11,016 bases of DNA from Thermodesulfobacteriota bacterium (GTDB lineage Bacteria; Desulfobacterota; Desulfobacteria; Desulfobacterales; RPRI01): positions 1-11,016 of the forward strand of contig JAUPLM010000011.1 in the NCBI GenBank assembly GCA_030836965.1, written 5' to 3'. Made by a program: the position numbers and the translations under genes. This document shows positions 7,739-10,902 of this stretch, piece by piece. The notes below the pieces were generated by a model. That model was not told the origin of the DNA. It did no database searches and saw nothing but the letters and a program-made list of their open reading frames with translations. Numbering within the stretch: position 1 is the first letter of the stretch; every line of letters begins with the position of its first letter.

Positions 7739-7750
7739 TTGAATCAGGCG

Positions 7751-8563
7751 ATGCTTGTGAATATAAAAAAAAACCTTGATAAGCTTTATCTGAAATACAA
7801 TAAAAGAGAATATGTACATCCCGATCCGCTCGAATTCCTATACAGTTACCGGGATATCAGGGATCGTGAGATCGCAGGATTAATAGCCTCTTCCCTTGCG
7901 TACGGAAGAGTAGCCCGGATATTGACAAGCGTTTCTTCGGTTCTTGATAAAATGGGATCTTCTCCTTACTCGTTTATCAGGAATTCGACACTATCCTCGT
8001 TAGGAAAAACATGCGGCGGATTCAGGCACAGGTTCGCGGGAGACGAAAATTTAACGGCTCTGCTGACCGGGTTAAAGCGGGTTCTTGAAGAATACGGATC
8101 CTTGCACGCATGTTTTTTGAAGGGGGTCGGTAAAAAAGATGAAACGGTTTTGAAAGGTCTGGACTTTTTTACGGGTAAGATAATTTCAGGCTGCTGCGGG
8201 AAGCCCGGACATCTCATCCCGCTGGTTACGAAGGGGAGCGCCTGCAAGCGGCTTAATCTGTATCTGCGCTGGATGGTCAGGAAGGATGATGTGGACCCGG
8301 GCGGCTGGGATAAGATCCCGCCATCCATGCTGATTATACCCCTTGATGTTCATATGCACAGGATAAGCCGGTTAATAGGATTTACGGACAGAAAACAGGC
8401 GGATCTCCGCACGGCTCTTGAGATAACATCATGCTTCAGGAAGCTTGCGCCTGATGACCCTGTCAAATACGATTTTGCATTAACCCGTTTCGGGATAAGA
8501 GCCGACATGAGCATTGATGGTTTATTAAAAAGCATCCGCTTTAAACCCGGAACCAATTATTGA
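7751..8563 (+). CDS. TIGR02757/DUF2400 family protein, possibly a DNA-glycosylase-like fold
   Basis: A soluble protein of about 270 residues recognised by its family signature: [13 protein letters not shown] and [14 protein letters not shown] near the N-terminus, [17 protein letters not shown] (161-177), VDPGGW (181-186), [10 protein letters not shown] (196-205) and [15 protein letters not shown] (235-249). Its biochemical function is not established as far as I know. I see a resemblance to the OGG branch of helix-hairpin-helix DNA glycosylases: G-x3-K166 followed by P-L-D199-V-H mirrors the catalytic Lys and the PVDVH Asp of OGG1 (inference only). The start is uncertain: TTG 7739 directly after the comEC TGA, ATG 7751 (chosen) or GTG 7757 with AGG at 7746-7748. 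All have weak ribosome-binding sites, which suggests translation coupled to comEC. Confidence 0.85.
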
Positions 8564-8577
8564 AAAAGGAGGCCCAT

Positions 8578-8781
8578 ATGACTATCGATCGTCTTGTTAT
8601 GGCTTTTGCCGGCTGCTTCATATTAATCAGCCTGCTTCTTGCTCATTTTCACAGTTCTTACTGGCTCTGGTTTACGGCCTTTGTCGGCGCGAATCTCCTG
8701 CAGTCTTCCTTCACAGGATTCTGCCCGCTTGCAAAGATTCTGAAATCTCTCGGTGTAAAACCGGGTAATGCTTTTGATTGA
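8578..8781 (+). CDS. Small DUF2892 (YgaP-like) inner-membrane protein
   Basis: The product has 67 residues with two hydrophobic helices, about residues 6-22 and 26-45, and the family pattern [34 protein letters not shown]. The FCPLAKIL motif close to the C-terminus is typical of DUF2892 proteins, the membrane part of YgaP, where it is fused to a rhodanese domain; here it stands alone. Function is unknown; sulfur or thiol metabolism is often suspected from YgaP. ATG 8578 follows a perfect AAGGAGG at 8566-8572. A TTG at 8560 would start inside the previous stop region and is not needed. The gap to the upstream gene is 14 bases, so it is the third gene of the comEC cluster. Confidence 0.85.
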
Positions 8782-8808: not shown

Positions 8809-8835
8809 TTGACAAATTTATTTTACTTATATAAT
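8809..8835 (+). promoter_or_regulatory. Sigma-70-type promoter of the iorA leader
   Basis: TTGACA (8809-8814) and TATAAT (8830-8835) are both exact consensus hexamers. The spacer is 15 bases, shorter than the optimal 17, which should lower basal strength. Transcription would start near 8842, giving a leader of about 250 nt before iorA. The AT-rich context and the leader peptide that follows support it. Confidence 0.75.
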
Positions 8836-8898
8836 TAAAAACAGCCTGTTAATAAGATTTTAATTTTTAATGAATCAATTATTGTAAGCAGGGGAAAA

Positions 8899-8940
8899 AT
8901 GGGTTTTAATCTATGGTGCTGGTGGCGGCAGGAATGTTGA
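8899..8940 (+). CDS. Tryptophan-rich leader peptide of the iorA attenuator
   Basis: A 13-residue frame, MGFNLWCWWRQEC, starts at ATG 8899 and ends at TGA 8938-8940. AGGGG at 8890-8894 lies four bases upstream, a good ribosome-binding site. Three of the four codons at 8914-8925 are UGG (Trp 6, 8 and 9), far above the usual Trp frequency of about one percent. The Trp codons form one arm of an RNA hairpin and the stop codon lies at the edge of the second segment. This is how leader peptides of ribosome-mediated attenuators are built. The peptide itself probably has no function; its translation rate reports the supply of charged tRNA-Trp. It lies between a consensus promoter and an intrinsic terminator in front of an aromatic-2-oxoacid gene. 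Confidence 0.85.
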   Translation: MGFNLWCWWRQEC

Positions 8941-9076
8941 AGCGCCCACCAGTCTGAATAAAAAATATAATTTATAATTTATCAGAGCCCTGGGCGGCTT
9001 TAAGCAGCGAATATGTGCGTGCAGCCCAAGGCTCTGTTGATTTTGAAAGCCTGGGTTGATAACCCCGGCTTTTTTT
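8919..9076 (+). promoter_or_regulatory. Six-segment tryptophan transcription attenuator in front of iorA
   Basis: Mutually exclusive pairings are visible. 1:2 is 8919-8927 with 8943-8952 (CTGGTGG-CG against CGCCCACCAG, one bulge). 2:3 is 8938-8948 with 8991-9002 (AAGCGCCCA against TGGGCGGCTT, one bulged G). 3:4 is 8983-8995 with 9024-9036 (CAGAGCCcTGGGC against GCCCAaGGCTCTG, one mismatch). 4:5 is 9023-9033 with 9048-9057 (one bulged A). 5:6 is the terminator at 9046-9072. Inferred logic: a ribosome stalled at the Trp codons covers segment 1, so 2:3 forms, 4 is freed to capture 5, and the terminator cannot form. With enough Trp the ribosome reaches the stop and masks 2, so 3:4 and then 5:6 form and transcription ends. 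Without translation 1:2, 3:4 and 5:6 form, also giving termination. Confidence 0.8.
9046..9076 (+). terminator. Intrinsic terminator of the attenuator
   Basis: AAAGCC (9046-9051) pairs with GGCTTT (9067-9072), and GGGTT (9053-9057) pairs with AACCC (9061-9065) around a three-base loop, with one T/C mismatch between the stems. Seven T residues (9070-9076) follow. It lies between the leader peptide and the iorA ribosome-binding site at 9085, so it must be read through for iorA expression. Its 5' arm is also the partner of segment 4. Confidence 0.9.
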
Positions 9077-9093: not shown

Positions 9094-10902
9094 GTGGGAA
9101 GAAAAAAACTGATGCTGGGCAATGAGGCTATAGCGCAGGGGCTTCTTGAGAACGGATGCGCTGTCGCTACTTCTTACCCGGGGACTCCGGCTTCGGAAAT
9201 CCTTGCTTCCTTTTCGCGGATAAAAAAGATAAACGCTCTTCCCGTGCATTCCCAGTGGGCGATAAATGAGAAGGTCGCCTTCGAGATCGCCTATGCCGGA
9301 TGCATGGCGGGGCTCAGAACCGCCGTCAGCATGAAGCAGGTAGGTCTTAATGTGGCGTCCGATCCTCTCATGAGCGCCGCGTACATGGGTACAAAGGGCG
9401 GTTTCATCGTGATAAGCGCGGATGATCCGGGACCTCATTCTTCCCAGACCGAGCAGGACAGCCGTCTTATGGCAATGATTGCGAAAATTCCGGTTCTTGA
9501 TCCCGATTCTCCGGCCCAGGCAAAAGATATGGTCTCTGTCGCATACGAGCTCTCGGAAACTTTTGAAATTCCGGTGATGCTTCGCCCTGCCACAAGAGTA
9601 TGCCATTCCCGCCAGGATATCCAGGCTGAGCCTTTCGGCTCATTCGGTAGAAAAGCCGATTTCAAAAAGGATCCGGCAAGATGGGCCGCGACTCCCAAAT
9701 TCCGATTCAAGCTTCATGGCGAACTTGAAAAAAAACTTGCGAAGATTGCGGCGTTTAAAAAAACATATCCTGTTAAACTTAATAAAGCGGCTGTCGCCAG
9801 GAAAGCGGTTATCGTATCGGGAGTAGCAGCCGCGCATGCAAGGGAGATAATGAAGGAGCTTAGCCTGTGGGATAAAATTCCTTTGTACCAGGTAATCCAG
9901 CCGTATCCTCTCCACAGAAATTTTATCTCTTCCGTTCGTAAGAAGTACGATGAAATACTGATCATAGAAGAGACTATGCCTGTAATCGAGATGCAGATCG
10001 CGGACAGAGCCAGGGTAAGGGGTAAACTTAACGGCTTTGTTCCCGGCGTGGGAGAAATTCTGCCTGAAGCTATTGAAGTGATGTTATGCGACTTTGCAGG
10101 CTTGAAGTCGGATAAGATAACCGTTCTGCCGCAACCCGGAAGACGCCCGACTCTTTGCGCCGGATGTCCGCACAGGGCGAGCTTTTTCGCGATAAAGAAG
10201 GCCGCGCCTAAAGGAATATATACCAGCGACATAGGGTGTTATACGCTCGGGCTTAACCTTGGGGCTGTTGATACAGTGCTTTGCATGGGCGCCGCGATCA
10301 GCCAGGCTGAAGGTTTCTATCACGCGTATAAGAATGATAGTAAAAAACCTGACATAGTTGCCACGATAGGCGATTCGACTTTTTTCCACGCGGGTATTCC
10401 GGCATTGATAGATGCCGTGGTGCAGAACGTGCATTTTACGCTGGTGATACTGGACAACAGGACAACCGCCATGACCGGAAACCAGCCTACGCCAGCTTCG
10501 GGATTCGGCTCTTCGGGGGAAACGCTTGAAACCGTAGATATCGAAGCGCTTGTGAAAGGCTGCGGTGTCAAGTTCTGTAAAACCGGCGATCCATGCAAAA
10601 TCAAAGAATTTATTCCCCTCGTGAAAGAAGCGGTTTTGTACGCAAGAGATAAAGGACCTGCCGTTGTTATCGCAAGACATCCGTGCCTCATCGGCGCCAG
10701 GATGAAGGATGAGAAGGCGAAAAAACTCTTTGTCAAAATTACGGATGCCTGCGAAGGATGTGAATATTGCATAAGACATTTTGAATGTCCGGCTATCATT
10801 TTTGACAAGGATAAAAAGCGGGCGGATATAGATCCGCTTCTTTGCAGCGGATGCGGAGTATGCATACATGTGTGTCCTAAAAAAGCTATAGAGATAAAAT
10901 AA
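9094..10902 (+). CDS. iorA: Indolepyruvate:ferredoxin oxidoreductase, alpha subunit
   Basis: This 602-residue thiamine-diphosphate enzyme interconverts aryl-pyruvates (indolepyruvate, phenylpyruvate, hydroxyphenylpyruvate) and CoA with arylacetyl-CoA, CO2 and reduced ferredoxin. Seen in order: the N-terminal pyrimidine-binding domain with LGNEAIAQGLLENG and TSYPGTPASEIL, a central CAGCPHRASFF motif (about 350-360), the ThDP/Mg motif from G426-D427-S428-TFFHAGIPAL to LDN455-RTTAMTGNQ, and a C-terminal ferredoxin domain with C553-C556-C559-C565 and C584-C587-C590-C594 for two [4Fe-4S] clusters. Length is normal. GTG 9094 follows GGAGGG at 9085-9090 and gives the usual MGRKKLMLGNEA start; ATG 9112 would cut into the conserved N-terminus. 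Expression must pass the Trp attenuator just upstream. The enzyme normally needs IorB, whose gene is not recognisable in the remaining bases. Confidence 0.96.
   Translation: MGRKKLMLGNEAIAQGLLENGCAVATSYPGTPASEILASFSRIKKINALPVHSQWAINEKVAFEIAYAGCMAGLRTAVSMKQVGLNVASDPLMSAAYMGTKGGFIVISADDPGPHSSQTEQDSRLMAMIAKIPVLDPDSPAQAKDMVSVAYELSETFEIPVMLRPATRVCHSRQDIQAEPFGSFGRKADFKKDPARWAATPKFRFKLHGELEKKLAKIAAFKKTYPVKLNKAAVARKAVIVSGVAAAHAREIMKELSLWDKIPLYQVIQPYPLHRNFISSVRKKYDEILIIEETMPVIEMQIADRARVRGKLNGFVPGVGEILPEAIEVMLCDFAGLKSDKITVLPQPGRRPTLCAGCPHRASFFAIKKAAPKGIYTSDIGCYTLGLNLGAVDTVLCMGAAISQAEGFYHAYKNDSKKPDIVATIGDSTFFHAGIPALIDAVVQNVHFTLVILDNRTTAMTGNQPTPASGFGSSGETLETVDIEALVKGCGVKFCKTGDPCKIKEFIPLVKEAVLYARDKGPAVVIARHPCLIGARMKDEKAKKLFVKITDACEGCEYCIRHFECPAIIFDKDKKRADIDPLLCSGCGVCIHVCPKKAIEIK

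Follow-up and report, generated by a model that had tools for sequence, protein, structure and literature searches.

The window analysed here, a stretch of 11,016 nucleotides from a relative of sulfate-reducing bacteria, carries iorA, the gene for the alpha subunit of indolepyruvate ferredoxin oxidoreductase (IOR), behind a very short reading frame crowded with Trp codons. IOR is often regarded as a Trp-degrading enzyme. The locus raises the question of what such a frame does in front of this gene, and what it may say about the direction in which the enzyme works. For Asgard archaea, the accessible text of one study states that gene content does not settle the direction of IOR combined with an aryl-CoA ligase (PMC6737245). 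No leader peptide or attenuator ahead of ior was found in the literature searched, mostly papers outside subscription, in line with the earlier note on this DNA, which knew of none.

The leader frame ahead of iorA and its orthologues

The leader peptide frame (8899..8940, forward strand) runs from an ATG at 8899 to a TGA stop codon at 8938-8940 and encodes MGFNLWCWWRQEC, as read from the sequence and from orthologous leaders. Its UGG codons stand at 8914, 8920 and 8923, confirming the three among four codons described by the earlier note. A scan of both strands of the window for frames of 6-45 codons starting with ATG, GTG or TTG returned it as the sole short frame with three Trp in four residues. 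When the 323 nt ahead of iorA are Markov-shuffled, a frame of this kind arises with a frequency of 0.00115 if it must start with ATG and of 0.0022 if any of the three starts is allowed.

A gap of 153 nt, with an intrinsic terminator inside it, separates the frame from iorA (9094..10902, forward strand, GTG start). The encoded protein matches TIGR03336 over its full length at 648.0 bits (curated cut-off 650.9) and contains the Pfam domains POR_N and TPP_enzyme_C; a search of the PDB for sequence relatives at E <= 1e-10 returned none. Upstream of the leader, a promoter-like pair was read in the sequence at 8809..8835 on the forward strand, with TTGACA at 8809-8814 and TATAAT at 8830-8835. Both hexamers are perfect, and the pair is kept in three same-genus orthologues (L016, L017, L018). 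The earlier claim of a consensus promoter thus stands for the hexamers but not for their spacing: the spacer is only 15 nt, which is why the pair was missed by a scan for spacers of 16-18 nt. The claim that the frame has its own ribosome-binding site also holds in part, in that a Shine-Dalgarno-like AGGGG (8890..8894, forward strand) lies 4 nt before the ATG but is of moderate strength.

Directly upstream of the promoter is a small membrane-protein-like frame (8580-8781), whose neighbour (7739-8563) resembles sequence at the equivalent position in a genome of the same genus, G003. That genome retains, at the ior position (L013, about 1501-1531), the gene upstream and what looks like a remnant of the promoter, after which the sequence is unrelated. 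G003 has no IorA match at E <= 1e-100.

At the DNA level, a search of 96 relatives recovered the leader region at 82-85% identity in three same-genus genomes and at 65% in a member of another family (G070, L015), while two more matches cover the promoter only or the terminator only. At the protein level, 242 genomes of the order were searched with IorA, and 198 of them contain a match at E <= 1e-100. These matches fall into groups that we named class A (orthologous, 61-100% identity), class C (near 50%) and class B (near 40%). Up to 500 nt of upstream DNA were read for 63 class-A genes (62 of 66 places plus L015, leaving out the partial matches without a start in G187, G117, G206 and G030), for eight class-C genes (of 13 places) and for 20 class-B genes among the matches listed, one of which has only 129 nt upstream.

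Frames with three Trp codons in four precede 19 of the 63 class-A genes, none of the 20 class-B paralogues among the matches listed and none of the eight class-C paralogues; 5 of 2520 Markov shuffles of the class-A upstream regions gave one. Six further class-A leaders with two Trp in four and the same RNA behind them (L052, L057, L066, L071, L072 and L078) are clear by alignment. The alignment of upstream regions that the earlier note had proposed as a check therefore yields a short Trp-codon frame at the same place in 25 of the 63 genes. A scan for clustered Trp codons found no leader in the other 38, of which L041 has a damaged one. The gaps among the Trp codons of the 25 aligned leaders are whole codons. 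The clustered cognate-codon frame typical of a trp-leader attenuator is present, and it is predicted to be translated.

A chance short frame, with a terminator belonging to a constitutive leader or an unrelated small RNA, would gain some credit from the commonness of short frames in AT-rich leaders. We regard this as having next to no probability and reject it, in the main on the conservation over several families and on the shuffle frequency near 0.001, while the 0 of 20 in the class-B control (among the matches listed) and the genes found behind further copies of the element (below) also count against it. The judgement of the earlier note that the frame is hard to explain by chance is borne out by the shuffles together with the orthologues.

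Alternative helices and the proposed placement of the ribosome

The leader RNA comprises six segments, all on the forward strand. Segment 1 (8921..8927) lies within the Trp codons, has the consensus GGTGGTG in the alignment of the 25 leaders and can pair with segment 2 (8939..8953, consensus GAAGCTTGCTCACCACC). The latter overlaps the stop codon, in which it starts in most leaders, and pairs alternatively with segment 3 (8985..9001, consensus GAGCCGTGAGCGGCTTC) as an antiterminator. Segment 3 can instead pair with segment 4 (9018..9034, consensus GAAGnnGCTCATGGCTC), which can also pair with segment 5. Segments 5 and 6 make up the intrinsic terminator (9046..9076), a hairpin at 9046-9069 with a T run at 9070-9076, which stands before the first gene where the earlier note had placed a terminator. 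Helices 2:3 and 3:4 share segment 3 and are mutually exclusive, as terminator and antiterminator should be. The conserved primary sequence of the element includes GAAGCTTGCTCACC and GAGCCGTGAGCGGCTTC.

Because a single row of the alignment (L048) supplied the structure, comparison with slid versions is biased in its favour; with that proviso, paired cells make up 91.3% of helix 2:3 (33-48% when slid), 88.4% of 3:4 (36-54%), 82.1% of 4:5 (29-61%) and 86.3% of 1:2 (41-71%). The ten double-changed cells of helix 2:3 were reached by 2 of 500 shuffles and its covariation score by 1 of 500, whereas its number of double-changed pairs and its pair types lie within the shuffles. Helix 3:4 has 22 double-changed cells (0 of 500 shuffles) and helix 4:5 has ten (2 of 500), the latter with fewer pair types than the shuffles. 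Helix 1:2 is the weakest-supported, with no covariation beyond shuffles in the 25 leaders. Mean folding z-scores against dinucleotide shuffles are -2.13 for 1:2, -4.0 for 2:3, -4.15 for 3:4, -1.4 for 4:5 and -4.75 for 5:6; the last two values come from 23 sequences, since L071 and L075 end at 3:4, and 4:5 scores below -1 in only 13 of the 23. The combination of clustered Trp codons at orthologous sites with a conserved RNA of alternative helices supports the attenuator-type interpretation offered before.

In 15 of the 25 leaders, segment 4 is followed by a run rich in U (under a permissive criterion of 6 T in 9), so many leaders have a pair of consecutive terminators. The U run after 3:4 in the window is poor, and the first terminator there looks weak. 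L071 and L075 possess the first terminator alone (3:4 and a T run), with no 5:6 hairpin in the alignment, and in L072, L073 and L078 the last hairpin has a very high GC content and no U tract. In L041 (G121), 300 nt before iorA, the leader frame is gone and a long inverted repeat takes its place, with segments 3-6 and the terminator still present. The sensor seems to have been lost naturally here.

Rfam searches found nothing in the window at the gathering score, five leader loci likewise had no match at E <= 1, and the RNA element is without an Rfam counterpart, Trp leader and T-box families included. As far as the accessible parts of the sources describe them, classical trp operon leaders are alike in their short peptide with tandem UGG codons, their exclusive terminator and antiterminator, and their U-tract terminator before the first gene (PMC1262725; for enteric bacteria, PMC5343134). 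Unlike these, the ior element is a six-segment chain in which two terminator-like hairpins (3:4 and 5:6) oppose 2:3 and 4:5, it has conserved primary sequence without a match in Rfam, and it would also control iorA, a PaaK-like ligase, trpB2 and a TRAP transporter besides trpE and trpD.

The leaders contain two to five Trp codons, the last of which lies 12-19 nt from segment 2 (median 13, and exactly 13 in 16 of 25) and a variable 2 to 13 codons from the stop codon. A stalled ribosome reaches roughly 12-19 nt beyond its A site. With a narrow range of distances from Trp to segment 2 and a wandering stop, the geometry fits stalling on the Trp codons and not arrest at the stop, and the cognate codons appear placed so as to leave the antiterminator free.

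In tnaC, free Trp induces through an arrest leader, with a Trp at a fixed distance from the arrest stop codon. The ior leaders resemble it in bringing a Trp-containing peptide before a Trp-metabolism operon, and control of this type would mean that free Trp arrests the ribosome at the leader stop and induces iorA for Trp degradation, a role not out of keeping with the archaeal peptide fermentation in which IOR is known from the accessible part of PMC6737245. We consider it very unlikely. The position of the ior-leader Trp is set against an RNA helix, staying within 12-19 nt, and not against the stop codon; the leaders contain several Trp codons and not one, the alternative helices are typical of attenuation, and trpB2, trpE and trpD, whose induction by Trp would be senseless, stand behind copies of this element too (below). 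A TnaC-like arrest is rejected on the missing fixed distance between Trp and stop.

Attenuation by stalling would proceed as follows. When charged tRNA-Trp is plentiful, the ribosome would pass the UGG codons to the stop and cover segment 2, so that 3:4 and then 5:6 form and transcription stops before iorA. When charged tRNA-Trp is scarce, it would stall on UGG, its front edge stopping shortly before segment 2; 2:3 could then form, leaving segment 4 free to pair with segment 5 and pre-empt the terminator. With segment 1 masked, 22 of 25 folds contain 90% or more of the 2:3 pairs, and with the 5' half of segment 2 masked, as by a ribosome at the stop codon, 3:4 forms to a mean of 78% of its pairs. 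When the RNA up to segment 3 is folded unmasked, 2:3 forms in most of the 25 leaders and 1:2 in just 5, and termination must consequently rely on the ribosome at the stop; helix 1:2 is probably minor, and it is probably the stop-codon ribosome that permits termination. For the stalled leader of the window, the minimum-energy fold still contains the 5:6 terminator (-14.7 kcal/mol, with 4:5 at -15.6 kcal/mol), which means that 4:5 must form before segment 6 is made.

Genes behind the element in class and phylum

The 25 leaders served to build a covariance model, R1, whose matches on those same leaders therefore prove nothing. At E <= 0.01, R1 has a match in 84 of 291 genomes of the class. The 36 class matches at E <= 2.1e-10 precede iorA (25), a gene for a PaaK-like ligase (6), trpB2 (4) and a TRAP binding protein gene (1); 33 were assigned from loci and those in G041, G053 and G080 by their leaders, and 22 come from genomes used in building the model. 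All 14 independent matches at this threshold likewise precede PaaK-like ligase (6), trpB2 (4), iorA (3) or TRAP (1) genes. Seven weaker class matches, sampled with L181 left out as too short, lie before trpE (4), trpB2 (1), livH (1) and livG (1).

A search of 395 genomes of the phylum gave matches at E <= 1e-4 in 34, of which 31 belong to other orders. Among 27 loci outside the order, the element precedes iorA at ten (53-60% identity to IorA of the window), trpB2 at six, trpE at six and trpD at two, hence Trp-related genes at 24; the second trpD (L208) owes its name to its similarity to the first (L197). The other three are L189, at a contig end, L196, and L213, where the match is probably false. 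That nearly all examined matches stand before Trp-related genes is the remaining argument against a chance frame. In G079 the leader heads trpB2 followed by iorA, and in G119 trpB2 starts about 540 nt after the element. A family scan of one example each placed TrpB2, TrpD and the TRAP protein over their curated cut-offs, and IorB, the PaaK-like ligase and TrpE at near full-length matches below theirs.

The source genome has one R1 element, its second match being at E 0.73. The 20 class-B regions among the matches listed gave one weak match (L216, 14.9 bits), on the strand opposite to iorA and with an E of 0.0033 that derives from a small search. Over 90 loci (299 kb), R1 found the leaders, the damaged L041 leader at 31 bits and six antisense echoes. 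Five further genomes (by title Aminicenantes, two Elusimicrobia and Omnitrophota, and one other) had no match at E <= 0.01, a number too small to give a false-positive rate.

Trp-rich leaders and attenuator-like RNA stand before the livH-like and livG-like genes of L180 and L186, names that we assign from their sequence. The branched-chain-type ABC transporter there is a candidate importer of aromatic acids or Trp. L196 (G586) has its match on the minus strand with a Trp-rich leader-like frame; no Trp link was found, and the next long frame is, by its look, presumably a DedA-kind membrane protein.

Tandem Trp codons also occur at trpE loci of the same order (L107-L136), with three Trp in four at 16 of 30 and two in four at seven more. 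These leaders resemble those of iorA in this respect, and some are weakly recognised by R1; they differ in their longer peptides (for example MTSDSIRRWWWRGCIGPADTLISPQG), in the sequence after the Trp run and in their weaker scores. As the same element heads paaK-like genes, trpB2, TRAP, trpE and trpD, it marks a Trp regulon and not ior alone.

Gene neighbourhood and the direction of IOR

The neighbourhood of iorA was compared in 26 class-A loci with downstream DNA of differing lengths. The 11 leader-bearing loci have iorB in all 11, PaaK in eight and a TRAP protein in two others, whereas the 15 leaderless ones have iorB in 12, PaaK in one and TRAP in two. Besides iorA, the attenuator would in relatives control iorB, an AMP-forming aryl-CoA ligase of the PaaK kind and a TRAP transporter for aromatic acids. 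In L021, a TRAP protein follows iorABpaaK and matches Desal_3247 (4n6d) and Dde_0634 (4nap, 4pgn/4pgp); we take 4pgn and 4pgp to be Dde_0634 solved with indoleacetate, indolepyruvate and tryptophan. Other relatives have entry titles naming aromatic acids (cinnamate, coumarate, 4-hydroxyphenylacetate). The structure model of the TRAP protein is poor (pLDDT 45), and its fold matches, taken after the sequence match, served for entry titles only.

Of 86 relatives, 72 have a TrpE-like protein at E <= 0.001, nine of these proteins over the curated cut-off. Many of these organisms can thus probably make Trp, and the ior branch looks like salvage and not a replacement. No trpE was found in the source genome (G000), whose assembly is 64% complete. 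A switch that is on at low Trp points to a biosynthetic IOR working by reductive carboxylation and not to degradation of the substrate, and the make-up of the regulon suggests a carboxylase that yields indolepyruvate and other arylpyruvates from imported arylacetates. Import of arylacetates, their activation by the CoA ligase and the action of IOR would supply arylpyruvates and spare de novo Trp synthesis.

PaaK-like ligases also begin phenylacetate degradation. The attenuator could accordingly be real and Trp-responsive while IOR and the CoA ligase degrade or detoxify arylacetates and arylpyruvates, with the Trp codons gauging the general aromatic amino-acid state. The accessible part of a 2026 paper ties the IOR of Bacteroides thetaiotaomicron to the conversion of phenylalanine to phenylacetate, and cites a role in phenylacetate formation, but it also suggests that the Bacteroides IOR may be biosynthetic, an argument from ligase type alone in that AMP-forming ligases typically favour acyl-CoA formation (PMC13285125). 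Breakdown appears improbable to us, given that ligase chemistry, an expression at Trp shortage that has the wrong sign for degradation and a switch held in common with trpB2, trpE and trpD.

The biosynthetic reading has a counterpart in the aryl-acid route of methanogens, where the accessible parts of the sources describe a reductive IOR, accompanied in several methanogens by an aryl-CoA ligase (PMC3462420, PMC6737245, PMC4162585) and tie IOR to the making of aromatic amino acids from aryl acids (PMC3462420, PMC4162585); the ior system differs in being bacterial and under Trp attenuation. The leader, its conservation, the exclusive helices, the spacing and the members of the regulon are borne by the sequence, and from them we infer the stalling, the antitermination and the direction of IOR. 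We conclude that the element is very probably a ribosome-mediated attenuator of the trp-leader type that serves a Trp-salvage regulon, with IOR in reductive carboxylation. On balance we also lean towards a wider proposal, in which a phylum-wide Trp-attenuation regulon joins de novo synthesis (trpE, trpD) and indole salvage (trpB2) to arylacetate salvage by TRAP or ABC uptake, aryl-CoA ligase and reductive-carboxylase IOR, under a new RNA class whose single stalled ribosome would trip two terminators through a domino of helices.

Judged by its sequence, the element is a known type of Trp attenuator placed before an unexpected gene, made of an RNA that matches nothing in Rfam. It adds a natural set of attenuators outside Rfam, many of which have two successive terminators, and genes and transporters for arylacetate salvage could be located through such leaders. 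A Trp attenuator shared with trpB2, trpE and trpD provides an independent, regulatory argument that IOR works in the building direction in these bacteria, and it makes that direction directly testable.
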